Of a stretch of DNA of 64,000 nucleotides, positions 31,718 to 40,295 are shown one piece after another. The notes under the pieces were generated by a model. The model worked only from the letters and a program-made list of their open reading frames with translations. It ran no database searches and was not told the DNA's origin. The stretch comes from an uncultured Ruminiclostridium sp. Lineage in GTDB: Bacteria; Bacillota; Clostridia; Oscillospirales; Ruminococcaceae. Positions within the stretch are counted from its first letter, which is position 1, and each line of letters starts with the position of its first letter. Position numbers and translations under genes: made by a program. The stretch covers positions 126,364 to 190,363 of the forward strand of contig CANQED010000002.1 of the NCBI GenBank assembly GCA_947594425.1, in the 5' to 3' direction.

Positions 31718-32200
31718 GTGGACATTTTATTTAAAACCGACGACTTTGTATTTTCATACAGGGTCGGCGGCATATTGATCCGCAACGGGAAAATCTTATT
31801 ACAGCGCCCGAAGAATGACGATTATGCCATTATCGGCGGGCATGTCGCTGCAATGGAAACAAGTGTCGAGACCCTTAAGCGCGAATTTGAAGAAGAGCTT
31901 CACACTAAAATAGAGGTAGATGAGCTTGTGGCGGTCGGAGAGATATATTTTCCGTGGGACAACAGACCCTGCCATCAGATATGCTTGTATTATAATGTGC
32001 ATTTGGCGGACGATAATATTCCGTTAGACGGAGTTTTTCATGGATATGATGATTTTGATAACGAAAGAATAGACTTGGACTTTTGTTGGGTCCCGTTAGA
32101 AGAATTAAAGGGAGGCGCTAAGGTTTATCCTTTGGAGCTGATACCGTATATCCTTGAACCGCGTAAGAAAATCGTACATTTTATTTCGAGGGAAGTTTGA
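31718..32200 (+). CDS. NUDIX hydrolase
   Basis: Nudix box GGHVAAMETSVETLKREFEEELHTKIEVDEL. Confidence 0.9.
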   Translation: MDILFKTDDFVFSYRVGGILIRNGKILLQRPKNDDYAIIGGHVAAMETSVETLKREFEEELHTKIEVDELVAVGEIYFPWDNRPCHQICLYYNVHLADDNIPLDGVFHGYDDFDNERIDLDFCWVPLEELKGGAKVYPLELIPYILEPRKKIVHFISREV

Positions 32201-32230
32201 TTATATTTTTTAGAGGTAAACAAAGTACAA

Positions 32231-32266
32231 AAGAGCTATCGGATATTAAGTCCGACAGCTCTTTTT
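32231..32266. terminator. Cassette terminator, copy A
   Basis: AAAGAGCTaTCGGAtattaagTCCGAcAGCTCTTTTT; same hairpin at 38165. Confidence 0.8.
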
Positions 32267-32269
32267 GTT

Positions 32270-32788
32270 TTAGTATAAAATCCCTTTCTCTTTCATTTCA
32301 ACTATTTCCGGCGTGCTTTCATGGTATTTACCAATAATCAAATACAGATAGTTTCTCAAATGTATTATATCTTCCCTGTCCATTGCAATAGTCAGGTGGT
32401 TTGCCGTTAAGCCGTCGTGCCAAAAGTATACTTGCCAGTCGATAGAGATATCGATTATTTCATGAGTACCATTTTCAACACTCAGTTCTTTTTTCGGGGA
32501 CATTTTAAAGCAAAAATCCGGCTCGACAAACACTACATTTACAGGTTCGGTCAATCTGTCACTTATTAAATCATCAAGAGCTTGTGCAAGACCATCGACT
32601 TCAAGTGATAAAAAAACCTCGTCGTTCGTTCCTTTATAATTGAGCCATGGCTCAGAAGAAAACGAATAGCTCACCTCGCACCAACAACCGTATTCATCGT
32701 AGGCGCGCTCGGTTTCATTTTGGTACTGCTGAATTTGGAGCTTTACGATAATCCCGTCTAAATCCATTTGCAACCACATATTAATCAT
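32270..32788 (-). CDS. Cassette A cargo: hypothetical 172-aa protein, possibly immunity-like (WapI-like)
   Basis: ISIDWQVYFWHDGLTANHLTIAMDREDIIHLRNYL; family inference weak. Confidence 0.6.
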   Translation of the reverse strand: MINMWLQMDLDGIIVKLQIQQYQNETERAYDEYGCWCEVSYSFSSEPWLNYKGTNDEVFLSLEVDGLAQALDDLISDRLTEPVNVVFVEPDFCFKMSPKKELSVENGTHEIIDISIDWQVYFWHDGLTANHLTIAMDREDIIHLRNYLYLIIGKYHESTPEIVEMKEKGILY

Positions 32789-32893
32789 CCCTTTCTATTA
32801 GCCTTTAGCTTGTTAAAATTTGTTCCACCGAGGTGTCACCAAGCCCTGCGCAGAACCGCTTACCCTAACACTCCTCACCGCAAAAACCACCTC

Positions 32894-33451
32894 TCAACTA
32901 TTAGCAAACGCAATAATCGCGTCGATATTATCGATAACGAACTGCTGCGCGTCCCTATTATAAAGCACAACGCGATAATTGCCGTAGGGGCTTGTCCTCA
33001 TTTCGGCGGTAATGCCGAGCTTTTCCCCGTCCTCAGTGGGGAGCTTTTTTAACTTGCCGCTCGCGTCGGCTTCTTCAAAAAGCGCGCCGATATTTATAAG
33101 CCAAGTTGTTATGTACTTGTAGCTTATCAGCTTCATCGTTTCGGTATTGATAAGGGCGTTAATTCTTTTAGTGATTTCACTAACAGGTATAGGAGATTCC
33201 GAAAAGGCAAACTGCGCAAGCTTGTCCTGCGTTATCGCAAACGGAACACGCGACGGCTTTTTCGGAGGCTTTATCCCGCCCGCGTCGATGACCTGCCGCA
33301 AGATATCAGACACATAGAATAGACACCGTGACAATCGCACGTTGTTTATAATATCTGCTTGCGCGGCGGGCCGGTCGTCTACTGGGTTTATGCCGTTAGC
33401 TAATTTGTCAATGTATGTCTTCGCGTAAGCGATTTTTTCAAGCTCTGTCAT
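32894..33451 (-). CDS. Hypothetical 185-aa protein, cassette core gene copy A
   Basis: About 91% identical by eye to 38667..39224; RBS AGGGAGGG. Confidence 0.8.
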   Translation of the reverse strand: MTELEKIAYAKTYIDKLANGINPVDDRPAAQADIINNVRLSRCLFYVSDILRQVIDAGGIKPPKKPSRVPFAITQDKLAQFAFSESPIPVSEITKRINALINTETMKLISYKYITTWLINIGALFEEADASGKLKKLPTEDGEKLGITAEMRTSPYGNYRVVLYNRDAQQFVIDNIDAIIAFANS

Positions 33452-33492
33452 GGGAGCCCTCCCTAAAATGTTAAAGCGTTTTTCTATATATT

Positions 33493-33520
33493 ATTATAAT
33501 GTATTTTTCGAGGTTGTCAA
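33493..33520 (-). promoter_or_regulatory. Cassette promoter, copy A
   Basis: Minus-strand TTGACA-16-TATAAT. Confidence 0.8.
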
Positions 33521-33606
33521 GGGGAGAGGGATTTGATAATAAATCTTTCGACCTCACATCTATTGTAACGCTTCACAAGATGATATAAAATGTACGTTTT
33601 ATAGGA

Positions 33607-33635
33607 TTGACAATTTTAGTAAGTTGTGCTATTAT
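33607..33635 (+). promoter_or_regulatory. Predicted promoter of the MTase-like/DUF262 operon
   Basis: TTGACA-17-TATTAT; leaves ~500-nt leader before ORF start at 34150. Confidence 0.5.
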
Positions 33636-34149
33636 AATAATGTATAAATATGGATGCGGTGGGTAATGCCTGTTAGCTATTATAAGCTAAATAAATTACT
33701 TATAGATAAAAATTAATCAAACCGATTCAAAGAGTGCGACCTAAATCATTTTTAATATGTTTGCCAAAATGAGCCGCAATGAATATATGTAGTTAGAAGC
33801 CTCTCCGAAATCTGCCAGGCCCTATTCCCTTGCAGTATAAAGATAAAGCCCGAATGCTTGTATCTCTCAAATCGAGCAGGATTTATCGTTACATGCAGAA
33901 TAATGTCCGAGCCGATTTGCCATCCTATTGCTTGTTAGCCTGTAACCCGTGATTTCGTTGTAATGCAGGAATTTACGATTTAAGATGGACAAATTGAGAA
34001 AGATAATGAACAACTTTACAAAATCATTGATGCAGCAGAGATCAGCTCAGAATAACTGCAAACATATAGAATCCACGTATAAGAAAATTACCTGTGCAAA
34101 TATTAAATGGAGCCCATATTATTCAGTATATCACATTATTGGAGGATTT

Positions 34150-35664
34150 ATGAGTTCTTATACATATAAGCAAGAATCGAAGAATCAAGTACGTCATACG
34201 GTTATTCGGAACGCCGTTGAATTGCTTACTATTAGGCGAAGCGAAGCCTGCTGCGTTCGCAATTCATATGTCCGTGATCTATACGACTATTATCTATCAT
34301 TACCTGAATCTCACGAGCAGACCGAAGCAGCAAAAATTGAGCCGGAATATATCCGTGAATGGGAACACATACATTCAAATTTAATTGGGTATAAGCGCCC
34401 CGATGAATTGTCTGTTTGTTATTTGTCCGGCCCTGAGCCTGAAAATGACTTTAATGAACTGGTAAATATGGGCGTTCTCCCTCAGAATATATGGGCATTC
34501 GAGAATGAACGAAGTACTTATCTGCGAGCATTGGACTCGTTAGACGGAATTACATTCATGCAGCCGAAAATTGTGAAAACGTCTATTGAGAAATTTTTTG
34601 AAAACTCGCCTAAGACATTTGATATAGTTTATATTGACGCTTGTGCATCCCTAATATCTGACCAACACGCTCTTCGCTGTGTTGCAAGCCTATTTAAAAA
34701 TTACCGTCTAAACTCGCCCGGCATATTGATCACAAATTTTGCTTATCTAAATCCCACAGAGACTGCGCAATATATAGATTTGATTTCAAGATATAACATA
34801 ATTCAGCATAACAGGACTGCCAATTTGATAAACGAATCAGGAAAAATACGATTCAAGTATGATGGTCTTGATATCAACAAACAAGTAGAGCAAAACCTTG
34901 AAGATGCTTATGGCGATTTTATTACAGCTATGGTTTGTAATGCGGCTTCTATCACCATTCCTACATTACGTTTTTGTAACTCAACATACTTGCAGGCAAT
35001 TTCAACAAATAATCCGACATCCAATGATTATTTGAGTTATTCGGATGTAAACACAATAAAAGACAATACACTGTATAAATTTCTGACATCAAATTCTTTA
35101 TTAAGCCAAGAAGGAGCTTCCTTCTCCGGAATAGAACGCGTAAATAAATTAGCTGTAGAATTGTCAGGGCTTTCGCAAGGTTTTGACCTGTTGTCTTGTT
35201 TACGTAAACTGCATGATATCAGGACTAAAGCAGGCAACTTCCGTCCTGAGCTTCAAGATGTCGTAGATTTCTTTGATACCGGCAATAAATTGTACCAGTT
35301 CTTGGACAAGCCTAACAGAGTTTTGTTTTTTGATTCTGTTATAAATCAGCTATCGTATCCCATGCATTATGTATCTGATAAAGCCAAAAGGCTTACATAT
35401 ATTGCCAAAAGCACAAGGATGTTTACTGATATGCTGTTGTTTGACGAGTGCAGATATATTTATGATTGGATTCCTGCAATTCATCAAATTCCCAAAGCTT
35501 TTTCAAATCCAAGCTGGCAATATACATTCCGTTTTGGGCTTGATGGACTAATAAAGCAAAGAATCAACTATAATAACGAGTTCTTCTTTCAGGGATCGGT
35601 TGTATCTAAAACAATTCCCGGATTTGAAGCCAAGGTTTTTCCAAAAAGAATTAAAATCAATTAG
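34150..35664 (+). CDS. Putative Rossmann/SAM-methyltransferase-fold protein, partner of double-DUF262 protein
   Basis: GGAGG RBS then MSSYTYKQ; pattern ELSVCYLSGPEPENDF / NIWAFENERSTYLRAL / FDIVYIDACASLI resembles MTase strands 1, 2 and 4; motif I not canonical. Confidence 0.6.
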   Translation: MSSYTYKQESKNQVRHTVIRNAVELLTIRRSEACCVRNSYVRDLYDYYLSLPESHEQTEAAKIEPEYIREWEHIHSNLIGYKRPDELSVCYLSGPEPENDFNELVNMGVLPQNIWAFENERSTYLRALDSLDGITFMQPKIVKTSIEKFFENSPKTFDIVYIDACASLISDQHALRCVASLFKNYRLNSPGILITNFAYLNPTETAQYIDLISRYNIIQHNRTANLINESGKIRFKYDGLDINKQVEQNLEDAYGDFITAMVCNAASITIPTLRFCNSTYLQAISTNNPTSNDYLSYSDVNTIKDNTLYKFLTSNSLLSQEGASFSGIERVNKLAVELSGLSQGFDLLSCLRKLHDIRTKAGNFRPELQDVVDFFDTGNKLYQFLDKPNRVLFFDSVINQLSYPMHYVSDKAKRLTYIAKSTRMFTDMLLFDECRYIYDWIPAIHQIPKAFSNPSWQYTFRFGLDGLIKQRINYNNEFFFQGSVVSKTIPGFEAKVFPKRIKIN

Positions 35665-35675
35665 GAGGAACAAAT

Positions 35676-38006
35676 ATGAGCATAGAATTAGATTGTACAG
35701 ACATCATTGAGATATTCAAAACTCATTTAAAAATTGAAAACTCCGTAAAATCAATTTCTCATACCTTTTTGAATGAAAGGTATGCCAATCGTATCGACTT
35801 TGCTCCCTATTTTCAGAGGAAGTATGTTTGGGATAGCGAGAAAGCGTCATATTTTATTGAGAGCATTATGCTTGGGACAGAAATACCACCAATTGTTTTG
35901 TTTGATGATGGAATCAAAAATGAAGTTATTGATGGCAGGCAGCGTTATGAGACGATCAAGCGCTTTTTAGAAAATACTTTTGCATTAGACAAAAAAGGAT
36001 TAAAATCCTTAACCGGTTTTTGTGACCTTCATTTTTCGCAATTACCGAACGATGTTATTGCTGAGTTTAAGAACACCAAAATACGCATTCTCCAGTTCAG
36101 TATTGTCAACGAACCATCACTAACTTCTGAGCAGAAAGATAAAGTTAAAAAGGAAATTTTCAAAAGATATAACTCCGGGATAATAGCTCTAAAGCAACAA
36201 GAAATTGACCGAGCAGCTTACATAAACGATCCATTTGTTCACACCTTTAAGGAAAGATTGGAAAAAGATAATCCTCTGCGGAATAAGTGCCAGCTTATCT
36301 TAATGCCAAGGCGCAAACAAAGTATGAACGAGCGAGATAAAGTCAATTACATTCTATCAAGAGCACGCAATGTTCTTTCTATGCGGTATATTCCGATTCA
36401 AAGTTACGCAGCTGCAAGCTCTAAATCCGATGTGATTCGCAACTATATGTTGATAAAAGTTGAAAAGGAATCTGTTGAAAATACGCTTGTTATGTTTGAA
36501 CAGGTCATTAACAGACTTTGTGACATACGTAACGAATTTGTTGAATTAGAATCATCCATCTCTGATAACACCTTGTTTTTCGAGGTTCTGTTTTGGGGAT
36601 TATCAATTGTGCTTGAAACGTCCCACGAGCTATTTTGGGCAATAAGTGCAAATCAGATTGCACATGATGTTCTTCAATGTACGGATATCCCTTGTTTTTG
36701 GAAAAATATATCCGTTGAGAGAAACGAATTTGGAATGGTGTTTTTCTCAACAGGCAGCCATTATTATAAGTCTATTTTGAACAGATATACATTTATTGCA
36801 AATTACTTGCAAGATAAAACCGGTATAGATTTCTCGTCAAAAATCAAAAATAAAGCTTCTTTTGATTCGATAATGTCTCAAACCCCGCTGATTGACCAAT
36901 ATAATAATTTCAAACTTTCAAAGACTGATCCTGTTTCAGCGACAGTTTATGACATTTTAACAGACGTGAAAACATCAAATTTCATCATACGCCCGGATTA
37001 TCAAAGATCAGAGGTTGAAAATAACATCCAAAAAGCCTCATATTTAATGGAAAGTATTATGCTCGGCATTCGCATTCCGCCAATTTTTATTTTTCGTCGC
37101 TCCGATAGTGTTAGCGAAGTTATTGACGGGCAGCAACGGCTACTGTCTATTCTTGGATTTCTTAAAGAAACATATAAAGATGAAAATGGGAAAGAGCAAA
37201 AATCTAATAAGCATGGATTTAAGTTATCTAAATTACGTTTCCTAAAAGAACTTAACGGAAAAGACATTGCCGGCGTCGAGGAAATCGACCCTAATTTCAA
37301 GGATCGGATTCTGGATTTTCAAATTGATATTGTTGAAATTAATCAGTCCCAGAACCCTCATTTTACTCCCATTGATCTTTTCCTTAGGCTTAATTCAAAG
37401 CCTTTCCCGATTGAGCCGAACACCTTTGAGATGTGGAATGCTTATGTGACAAAAGAATATCTCGAAACAATTAAAGAATACGCGAAAGAATACTCCGGAA
37501 AACTATTTAAACCGATCGATACACGTATGAAGAATGAAGAGCTAATAACTATGTTGGCATATTTAGCCTATATTGAAAAGAAAGATCAAATTAAACCGGG
37601 CGATTATTTGAATATCTTTGTACGAAATCAAAGAATAAATGCTAGGTTCAGAACAAAAGGTAATATCACAACAAAACTCGGCGAAATATCAAGTACGAAT
37701 GATCCTGTGTTTGGCGAGGCAATAGACGACGTTAAGTTATTCATTGAAAAGCTTCAGGCTCTTTGCGGAAGCAGATTCCAAGATTTCAATAAGATGTTGG
37801 GACATTCTCGGAAATACACTCTGAGCCGAACTAATCAAAATTTTTATCTGTTATGGATTGCTCTTGATCATATTGATTATGAGCGTGTTAAACAAAACAA
37901 GGCTGAGATATTTAAAAAAATAACAAATTTATTTTTGCAGAGCCAATACATAAACGACGATGAATTTGACGTAAAAGGTTTCATCCGGGAGCTTTCGAGT
38001 ATATAG
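35676..38006 (+). CDS. Tandem double-DUF262 protein (GmrS/ParB-like), no DUF1524 HNH domain recognised
   Basis: Two DUF262 signatures: PYFQRKYVWDSEKASYFIESIMLGTEIPPIVLF...VIDGRQRYETI and PDYQRSEVENNIQKASYLMESIMLGIRIPPIFIF...VIDGQQRLLSI. Confidence 0.85.
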   Translation: MSIELDCTDIIEIFKTHLKIENSVKSISHTFLNERYANRIDFAPYFQRKYVWDSEKASYFIESIMLGTEIPPIVLFDDGIKNEVIDGRQRYETIKRFLENTFALDKKGLKSLTGFCDLHFSQLPNDVIAEFKNTKIRILQFSIVNEPSLTSEQKDKVKKEIFKRYNSGIIALKQQEIDRAAYINDPFVHTFKERLEKDNPLRNKCQLILMPRRKQSMNERDKVNYILSRARNVLSMRYIPIQSYAAASSKSDVIRNYMLIKVEKESVENTLVMFEQVINRLCDIRNEFVELESSISDNTLFFEVLFWGLSIVLETSHELFWAISANQIAHDVLQCTDIPCFWKNISVERNEFGMVFFSTGSHYYKSILNRYTFIANYLQDKTGIDFSSKIKNKASFDSIMSQTPLIDQYNNFKLSKTDPVSATVYDILTDVKTSNFIIRPDYQRSEVENNIQKASYLMESIMLGIRIPPIFIFRRSDSVSEVIDGQQRLLSILGFLKETYKDENGKEQKSNKHGFKLSKLRFLKELNGKDIAGVEEIDPNFKDRILDFQIDIVEINQSQNPHFTPIDLFLRLNSKPFPIEPNTFEMWNAYVTKEYLETIKEYAKEYSGKLFKPIDTRMKNEELITMLAYLAYIEKKDQIKPGDYLNIFVRNQRINARFRTKGNITTKLGEISSTNDPVFGEAIDDVKLFIEKLQALCGSRFQDFNKMLGHSRKYTLSRTNQNFYLLWIALDHIDYERVKQNKAEIFKKITNLFLQSQYINDDEFDVKGFIRELSSI

Positions 38007-38164
38007 ATAACAGCCCTTCGCTGACAACATCGTGAATAGCCCGTAATATATTGATAATCTGAATAATCCCGATGCCTTGAGCAAAATAATATATACAAAA
38101 TTAGTTAAGTCACGCTTTTAGAGAGCAAGTGAGAATTATTTAGCTGTTACAAAAAATAAAAATT

Positions 38165-38201
38165 AAAGAGCTATCGGATATTAAGTCCGACAGCTCTTTT
38201 T
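38165..38201. terminator. Cassette terminator, copy B
   Basis: AAAGAGCTaTCGGAtattaagTCCGAcAGCTCTTTTT. Confidence 0.8.
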
Positions 38202-38204
38202 GCT

Positions 38205-38588
38205 TTATCCATTATTACACATGCGATGGAACGCATTCCAAAATTCATTCCAGTTTTCAGGAGTTGCATCTTGACCTTTACAAGCGACAGATATATCTTC
38301 TATATGTATTTCAAATGTCCAAATATCAGCCGGCGGCATCCAACACATTGATGATTCGTAACAATGCATATTCCATTTATCAATACCTAATCTTTTGATC
38401 TCATTGTAAAATGTATCAATTTTATCAGTAATATCAAAATGATGCTTTTCTCCGTTTTTATAAGCGTCAATTAAAAATTTACCGTCAGATACAGATAATA
38501 TCGCATACTCCAGATAGTTTATTTTACTATCCGAAAAACAATCTATATATCTGTTAACAGTAAACTTAAAACCACTTAGTTTTGCCAA
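38205..38588 (-). CDS. Cassette B cargo: hypothetical 127-aa protein
   Basis: MAKLSGFKFTVNRYIDCFSDSKINYLEYAIL...; unrelated by eye to cassette A cargo. Confidence 0.6.
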   Translation of the reverse strand: MAKLSGFKFTVNRYIDCFSDSKINYLEYAILSVSDGKFLIDAYKNGEKHHFDITDKIDTFYNEIKRLGIDKWNMHCYESSMCWMPPADIWTFEIHIEDISVACKGQDATPENWNEFWNAFHRMCNNG

Positions 38589-38666
38589 CTATTCATACCT
38601 CATTTTATTAATGTCACTTAATCTTGCTCTGATTTCTACTATAATCATCATATTAAAACTTCTCCC

Positions 38667-39224
38667 TCAACTATTAGCGCAAGCAATGATCGCGTCGATA
38701 TTATCGATAACGAACTGCTGTGCGTCCCTATTGTATACGACGACGCGATAATTGCCGTAGGGGCTTGTTCGCATTTCTGATGTTATGCCGAGCTTTCCCC
38801 CGTCCTCGGTGGGGAGCTTTTTGGCTTTCCCGCTCGCGTCGGTTTCCTCAAAAAGCGCGCCGATATTTATAAGCCAAGTTGTTATGTACTTGTAGCTTAT
38901 CGGCTTCATCATATCGGTATTGATAAGGGCGTTAATTCTTTTAGTGATCTCGCTTACCGGTATAGGAGAGTCCGAAAAGGCAAATTCTGCGAGCTTGTCC
39001 TGCGTTATCGCAAACGGAACACGCGACGGCTTTTTCGGCGACTTTACTCCGCCCGCGTCGATGACCTGCCGCAAAATATCGGACACATAGAATAAGCACC
39101 GTGACAATCGCACGTTGTTTATAATATCCGCTTGCGCGGCGGGCTGGTCGTCTATCGGATTTATGCCGTTAGCTAATTTGTCAATATATGATTTCGCGTA
39201 AGCGATTTTTTCAAGCTCGGTCAT
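38667..39224 (-). CDS. Hypothetical 185-aa protein, cassette core gene copy B
   Basis: Paralogue of 32894..33451. Confidence 0.8.
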   Translation of the reverse strand: MTELEKIAYAKSYIDKLANGINPIDDQPAAQADIINNVRLSRCLFYVSDILRQVIDAGGVKSPKKPSRVPFAITQDKLAEFAFSDSPIPVSEITKRINALINTDMMKPISYKYITTWLINIGALFEETDASGKAKKLPTEDGGKLGITSEMRTSPYGNYRVVVYNRDAQQFVIDNIDAIIACANS

Positions 39225-39265
39225 GGGTGCCCTCCCTAAAATGTTAAAGTGTTTTTCTATATATT

Positions 39266-39293
39266 ATTATAATGTATTTTTCGGGGTTGTCAA
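39266..39293 (-). promoter_or_regulatory. Cassette promoter, copy B
   Basis: Minus-strand TTGACA-16-TATAAT. Confidence 0.8.
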
Positions 39294-39365
39294 GGGGAGG
39301 AATTCAATTTACATATTGCTCTTTTCCGAATAATATGATATACTATTTTAAAAGGAGATGTTTTT

Positions 39366-40295
39366 ATGCCTATTCCTAAATATTATGAATTTTTTGCGCC
39401 GGTTATGGAGTGCCTTGCAGACGGCAAAACTCACACCGCAAAGGAAACCCGTGAATACTGTGCAAGCTATTATAAACTATCGGATAAAGAACAGAGCGAA
39501 AAGCTCCAATCGGGCCATACGATATTATTAAATAGGGTCGGCTGGGCGCGTACATATCTGTCCAAAGCAGGTCTTATACAAAAAGTAAACGGGGGAGTTT
39601 ATGCGATAACTTCCGAGGGCAAAAAGGCAATTGCGGACGGTTATAACAAAATTACTGTTGAATTTTTGGAGCAATATCCGACGTTCAACGATTTTACCAA
39701 AAAAACATTCGGAAAAAAAGATAATCAAAATAATATAATTGAAGGTATTTCTGTCTCGCAGGAACAAAGTCCCGAGGAGTTGCTCGAGGACGCGGCTATG
39801 CAGCTTGATTCCAATCTATCCGAGGAGCTTTTGGGAGAGCTTATGAAAATATCCCCTTATGATTTTGAGGAAGTAGTAATTAAGCTGCTTATCAAAATGG
39901 GATATGGAAAACCTGAGGAGAACAAGGAAGCCGTGACCCCAAAGTCCGGTGACGAGGGCATCGACGGCATTATCAGTGCAGATAAATTCGGATTTGATTC
40001 GATCTATATTCAAGCAAAGCAGTGGAAGTCTGGGAGCGTTGTCGGCAGACCCGAAATTCAGAAATTTTTAGGAGCTCTCGCCGGACAGGGAGCGTCAAAA
40101 GGCATTTTCATTACCACAGCGCAGTTTACAAAAGAAGCAATCTCGTATGCCGCAAAGCAGCTTCACAGCAAAATCGTCCTTGTGGACGGCAATCAGCTTG
40201 CCAAGCTGATGATAGAGTACGACCTTGGCGTATCGACTGTCGCAGTGTATAAAGTAAAGCGTATAGATACAGATTTCTTTAATGAGGATATATAA
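39366..40295 (+). CDS. mrr: Mrr-family restriction endonuclease
   Basis: N-terminal winged-helix Mrr_N; catalytic SGDEGIDGIISAD...IYIQAKQWKSG...VGRPEIQKFLGALAGQGASKGIFITTAQFTKEA. Confidence 0.93.
   Translation: MPIPKYYEFFAPVMECLADGKTHTAKETREYCASYYKLSDKEQSEKLQSGHTILLNRVGWARTYLSKAGLIQKVNGGVYAITSEGKKAIADGYNKITVEFLEQYPTFNDFTKKTFGKKDNQNNIIEGISVSQEQSPEELLEDAAMQLDSNLSEELLGELMKISPYDFEEVVIKLLIKMGYGKPEENKEAVTPKSGDEGIDGIISADKFGFDSIYIQAKQWKSGSVVGRPEIQKFLGALAGQGASKGIFITTAQFTKEAISYAAKQLHSKIVLVDGNQLAKLMIEYDLGVSTVAVYKVKRIDTDFFNEDI

Follow-up and report, generated by a model that had tools for sequence, protein, structure and literature searches.

A methyltransferase-fold protein encoded with a nuclease-free double DUF262 protein: most likely an anti-virus immune system

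Introduction

The common view of DUF262 proteins is that they supply the sensor half of a modification-dependent nuclease. The type IV restriction enzymes of the GmrSD, BrxU and SspE group join the DUF262 NTPase fold, with its QR, DGQQR and FxxxN motifs, to a His-Me/HNH effector domain. In the two-protein, GmrSD-like systems TgvAB and GrwAB of Vibrio two DUF262 domains act together, the NTPase motifs of both are needed, and a DUF1524 nuclease is carried on one of the proteins (PMC11411939, PMC12137116). Menshen (NsnA-NsnB-NsnC) is a multi-gene system with a DUF262 protein, NsnA, that is devoid of DUF1524, and in PD-T4-2 and the DUF262 plus HEPN pairs a DUF262 protein is likewise accompanied by a separate partner. 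Published DUF262 proteins have been described as NTP-driven sensors controlling an effector (PMC10952713, PMC11411939, PMC12137116).

Here we describe two adjacent genes, A and B, in a 64,000-nucleotide stretch of contig CANQED010000002.1 from an uncultured Ruminiclostridium sp. (hereafter the window). Protein B has the DUF262 fold and motifs in common with GmrSD, BrxU and SspE and differs from them in that their effector domain is missing from the pair, while TgvAB and GrwAB differ from A-B in that the latter holds both DUF262 domains in one chain, has no DUF1524 and has a methyltransferase-fold partner. Immunity against viruses is the most likely function of the pair, and A is also found alone in known virus-defence hotspots in numerous other bacteria.

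Results

The A-B locus and the surrounding DNA

Gene A (34150..35664, + strand) encodes a 504-aa protein of an undescribed family with a class I methyltransferase-type fold, and gene B (35676..38006, + strand) encodes a 776-aa tandem DUF262 (GmrSD_N) protein with no nuclease domain. According to the open reading frame list the two genes lie on the same strand with an intergenic gap of 11 nt, and GC content across the pair is 0.35-0.38 versus ~0.5 in the flanks and chromosome, in agreement with the original prediction of two genes 11 bp apart in an AT-rich island. The start of gene A was placed at the ATG at 34150, behind a GGAGG Shine-Dalgarno sequence (34141..34145, + strand); although the reading frame extends back without a stop to an ATG at 33985, the relatives begin at 34150. 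A consensus scan returned a promoter-like site, TTGACA-17-TATTAT with TG before the -10 (33607..33635, + strand, 11/12 matches), which is weak evidence because such sites are no rarer in shuffled sequence; the leader between this site and gene A would be ~500 nt long (33607-34150). No Rfam family matched within 32000-39400, and conservation of the leader of gene A was looked for in the related loci and not found; an RNA element in the leader or between the genes was accordingly rejected.

The cassette is flanked by two minus-strand copies of a module (32230-33451 and 38165-39224), in each of which a 185-aa gene is followed by a different small protein and then by the same 43-nt terminator-like hairpin. 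The copies of the 185-aa gene are 89-91% identical, the small proteins are a WapI-like immunity protein of 172 aa and an unmatched protein of 127 aa, and the terminator-like elements form a 43-nt direct repeat (left copy 32230..32272, right copy 38165..38207, both on the - strand) with 98% identity that brackets the cassette. An Mrr gene occupies 39366-40295 and starts 1,360 nt downstream of the pair. This gene had been cited as support for a defence context; it is indeed present, but as evidence it is weak, and the P4 and P2 hotspot placements and the swapped partners of B described below are much stronger.

Protein B contains two DUF262 domains and no nuclease

Pfam places two GmrSD_N (DUF262) stretches in protein B (E 2.7e-30), and the N- and C-terminal halves of the protein are 34% identical (E 1e-12), bearing out the expectation of two DUF262 signatures in one 776-aa chain. 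The first domain (35781..36221, + strand; Pfam residues 36-182) is NsnA-like, with a PADLOC NsnA match of 1e-54 over B residues 13-348, and carries YFQR at 45-48, IDGRQR at 85-90 and FKRYN at 162-166. The second (36930..37445, + strand), assigned from two Pfam stretches, its invariant residues and a relative from Priestia megaterium, with its extent taken from the alignment, carries YQR at 442-444, IDGQQR at 483-488 and FLRLN at 569-573. The motifs P-x-[FY]QR, DG[R/Q]QR (DGRQR in the first half, DGQQR in the second) and FxxxN (F162/N166 and F569/N573) are kept without exception by each half in all 13 relatives compared, which suggests two functional nucleotide pockets.

Pfam found no nuclease domain (HNH or DUF1524) in either A or B. 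The C-terminal half of B shares 36% identity with a plasmid-encoded protein of Priestia megaterium which ends in an HNH domain, has no first DUF262 and has no A annotated nearby, and B terminates just where the HNH tail of this relative starts. A hidden HNH at the C-terminus of B was therefore rejected, the fold search also showing no nuclease, and the original prediction was right in seeing no DUF1524 or HNH there. The overall confidence of the AlphaFold2 model of B (pLDDT 82.6) is low by pTM (0.59), and its fold matches, to ParB CTPases and more weakly to SspE, are of low significance and consistent with the known DUF262 fold.

We compared the pair with each of the named systems and rejected all of them. 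GmrSD was excluded by the missing nuclease, and TgvAB/GrwAB by the single chain lacking DUF1524. Protein B matches PD-T4-2_A at 8e-20, but the cognate second gene of PD-T4-2 is missing here, protein A having a methyltransferase fold and no PADLOC match at E<=1. Menshen resembles B in its NsnA-type protein, but B has two DUF262 domains in tandem, the NsnB ATPase and NsnC are absent, and neither A nor the tested neighbours match NsnB or NsnC, unlike the true Menshen locus L122 (below). The prediction that no named system would match consequently stood, and A-B would be a new variant within DUF262-based immunity; the partner family is undescribed relative to the PADLOC model set of 2023 that was used, and may have been described since.

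Protein A has a methyltransferase-type fold with an aberrant motif I

At E<=1, protein A matched nothing in Pfam, PADLOC or NCBIfam, none of the 67 family members matched PHROGs (0/67), and solved structures searched by sequence gave no meaningful match for either protein A or protein B. The AlphaFold2 model of A (pLDDT 92.4, pTM 0.93) has a class I methyltransferase-type core at residues ~85-200 and large, helical N- and C-terminal parts, and Foldseek returned SAM methyltransferases as its best PDB neighbours (E 1e-4). Protein A had been predicted to be Rossmann- or methyltransferase-like without a GxGxG, and the model agrees, with a non-canonical GPEPxND at motif I. By model position and conservation, GPEPEND (A residues 94-100; 34429..34449, + strand) forms the loop after strand 1 and replaces the glycine-rich SAM motif I, and FDIVYID (residues 157-163; 34618..34638, + strand) forms strand 4, whose D163 occupies the place of motif IV. 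Protein A therefore shares with the class I SAM-dependent methyltransferases the predicted Rossmann core, the acidic residue after strand 2 (E118) and the D after strand 4, and differs from them in the motif I loop, in large helical terminal parts that have invariant residues of their own and in matching no family model. A may use SAM or a nucleotide-like ligand, although its motif I is aberrant.

The invariance of GPEPxND and FDIxYxD is partly a matter of selection, because both served as scan patterns, while the other conserved residues are unaffected by this ascertainment. E118, N196, Y254, D386, Y417, K420, D432, R435 and D465 are kept in paired and solo A proteins, the last six making up an invariant or near-invariant group located in the C-terminal part. 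The DNA-methyltransferase motifs D/NPPY and PC are absent from A. Eleven of the 67 A proteins, the one in the window not being among them, weakly match PADLOC mad2 (PDLC04134), a generic HsdM-like model which matches proteins in 300/300 genomes and 14/14 controls, so that such a match means only "methyltransferase-like". An identification of A as Mad2 of MADS was rejected for this reason.

A and B are co-inherited in Bacillota

A profile scan for family A yielded 63 genome loci and 6 viral loci. The Bacillota clade comprised 17 loci, counting the window and one viral contig, and B lay directly downstream of A in 16 of the 17, with a spacing of -32 to +32 nt among loci in which both genes are intact; the pair, whose co-occurrence elsewhere had been left as a check, is thus conserved. 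Two of the 16 paired B genes are broken: in L012 (Dorea sp. 5-2) two insertions interrupt B while A is intact and 99.8% identical to the A of a neighbour strain, and in L015 B is frameshifted. The sole locus of the clade without B (L018) has a truncated A. A single change on the tree suffices for the paired state, which allows one origin of pairing; support at the base is weak because L023 and L024 fall near L033. Furthermore, the identity matrices of A and B correlate with r = 0.97 (12 loci; 0/10000 permutations), the pair is kept together down to ~38% identity, and changes are about two to four times as frequent at third codon positions as at the other two, as expected of genes under selection. 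A and B are co-inherited as a conserved two-gene unit. Among 399 genomes of the phylum B was found at E<=1e-20 only in its own genome; 391 genomes of the class gave one further tandem protein (L120).

A RhuM-family gene adjoins the pair in four Lachnospiraceae-type loci (L011:13146-14150, L013:12976-13980, L015:4239-5243 and L027:7859-8872), the assignment coming from a Pfam match for the L011 copy and from membership of the same sequence cluster for the L013, L015 and L027 copies.

Family A extends beyond Bacillota and occurs alone

None of the 51 other A members in the tree has B, and the flanks of ~50 solo A genes gave no convincing DUF262 gene. Their hosts include Pseudomonadota, Bacteroidota, Verrucomicrobiota, Cyanobacteriota, Myxococcota, Planctomycetota and a Methanosarcina (an archaeon), among others, and A is thus a broader family than the A-B pair, spanning phyla. 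E. coli Z0117EC0055 (L135) has a P4-like satellite at ssrA in which a full-length A (WP_021572920.1; profile match E 9e-168) is the one gene separating the integrase from psu, and the identical int-A-psu order, again with A as sole cargo, was found in Photorhabdus (L058). The int-psu site of P4-like satellites is a hotspot of anti-phage systems (Rousset et al., PMC9122126).

Other neighbours of solo A genes include AbiE-BrxL (L049), a STAND-like NTPase (L050, weak match), Septu, a Gabija-type helicase and DISARM/Druantia-type methylases, and ordinary genes, some of them metabolic, are interspersed among these; type II and III restriction-modification genes also count among the neighbours. No main text of a paper was found to hold accessions of solo A or Priestia relatives.

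Relatives of B are found with other partners

In a viral contig (L078) a tandem relative of B with 36% identity overlaps the gene of an AbiC-like membrane protein (PF16872), and the two genes (L078:6721-10331) lie in a P2-like prophage, flanked by its portal and gpA genes. The gpA-gpQ site of P2-like prophages is a second anti-phage hotspot (PMC9122126), and the pair located there is another candidate system in its own right. Single-DUF262 relatives adjoin HEPN proteins in L079 and L121, and one further relative of this kind lies in a complete Menshen operon (L122), together with NsnB and NsnC, where all three Nsn models match. The Priestia relative has its HNH in cis with DUF262. The DUF262 unit thus stays constant while the effector varies among an HNH nuclease, HEPN, an AbiC membrane protein and A. 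For the tandem protein of L120, no A is present in the ~240 bp upstream before the contig ends, and viral contigs queried with the Priestia and L120 proteins yielded no further B loci.

Where a single-DUF262 protein is coupled with a HEPN-type partner, in prophages or in the chromosome (L079:7935-9765, L080 and L121:6015-7761), the combination itself looks like a recurring two-gene defence unit.

Discussion

We infer from the sequences that A-B blocks phage, B sensing and A acting. The reading we prefer, at about even odds, is a two-gene anti-phage system with B as its NTP-driven sensor or regulator and A as its effector enzyme. Protein B, a fused pair of ParB/Srx-like DUF262 NTP-binding domains, would sense infection, the trigger possibly being modified phage DNA or another phage cue, and through NTP binding and hydrolysis would switch its partner; A, which has a class I methyltransferase-type fold, would then be the enzyme that executes the response on a small molecule, a nucleic acid or a protein. 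The roles were allotted in this way because the DUF262 unit stays while the effector changes, because published DUF262 proteins have a sensor role and because neither TgvAB nor GrwAB can do without either of its DUF262 domains. They could be reversed, since there is a B without an A in L078 and apparently in L120. Of the two-component system originally envisaged, the conserved unit in a defence setting, the methyltransferase-like partner and the double DUF262 all stand, and what finds no support is the DNA-modification role of A.

Since A outside Bacillota does not need B, it may also sense by itself, with B perhaps a mere accessory. A would then be a self-contained immune gene, sensor and effector in one, to which B was added later as a Bacillota-specific regulator or anti-counter-defence accessory; the solo genes of other phyla, the P4 hotspots with A as sole cargo and the persistence in Dorea sp. 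5-2 of an intact A beside a doubly interrupted B all fit this account, which we consider rather unlikely but a serious rival. Against it speaks the retention of B with A in the Bacillota clade down to ~38% identity with both pockets strongly conserved, which points to an essential role of B there. The same Dorea locus bears on a toxin-antitoxin arrangement, where one protein (A, or in the reverse case B) is toxic, the other restrains it and phage triggers release. A small, closely spaced pair on mobile AT-rich DNA and a relative of B paired with an abortive-infection membrane protein are what such an arrangement might look like, but an intact A beside a broken B disfavours A as a toxin held by B, and, A alone being common and B alone existing too, we regard the idea as improbable.

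The original prediction had A perhaps reading, making or protecting a DNA modification for B, and a modification-restriction pair of this kind, in which A marks host DNA or the target of B as self, leaving B to restrict phage DNA that is unmarked or marked, could appeal to the methyltransferase fold of A, to the weak mad2 matches and to the modification-dependent restriction typical of the DUF262 family (PMC4619093, PMC11411939). The claim found no support in the comparison: B is without a nuclease, A has neither DNA-methyltransferase motifs nor a DNA-methyltransferase family match beyond the mad2 hits in some relatives, hits which say only "methyltransferase", and A usually occurs without B. 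We give this account little credence; A is more likely a self-contained enzyme or effector, because of these missing motifs and matches and because most phyla have it without a partner, P4 satellite defence hotspots with A as sole cargo included. Finally, the ordinary metabolic genes among some solo-A neighbours would suit a metabolic or regulatory pair carried by chance in mobile islands and unrelated to immunity, but the P4 and P2 hotspot placements and neighbours such as type II/III restriction-modification, AbiE/BrxL, Septu, the Gabija-type helicase and DISARM/Druantia-type methyltransferases make this very improbable.

As a wider picture, somewhat less likely than not, we tentatively suggest that family A is a new, phylum-spanning kind of single-gene immune enzyme built on a methyltransferase fold, that it does not modify DNA, and that in Bacillota it was placed once under a nuclease-free double DUF262 switch; DUF262 proteins would accordingly serve generally as NTP-driven sensors whose effector (nuclease, HEPN RNase, membrane AbiC or methyltransferase-fold enzyme) can be exchanged. 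A-B and its relatives suggest that the DUF262 unit is a portable sensor and that its output may be other than DNA cutting. The analysis also brings out an unnamed enzyme family, present across bacterial phyla and in an archaeon, which forms the whole cargo of P4 satellite hotspots known for other, proven anti-phage cassettes (PMC9122126), and the E. coli member makes the idea testable in standard laboratory strains. Among the remaining members of the family, a verrucomicrobial operon conserved in two genomes (L049:2-8266 and L063:2-7931) has a solo A with a large gene on one side and AbiEi/AbiEii/BrxL-type genes on the other.
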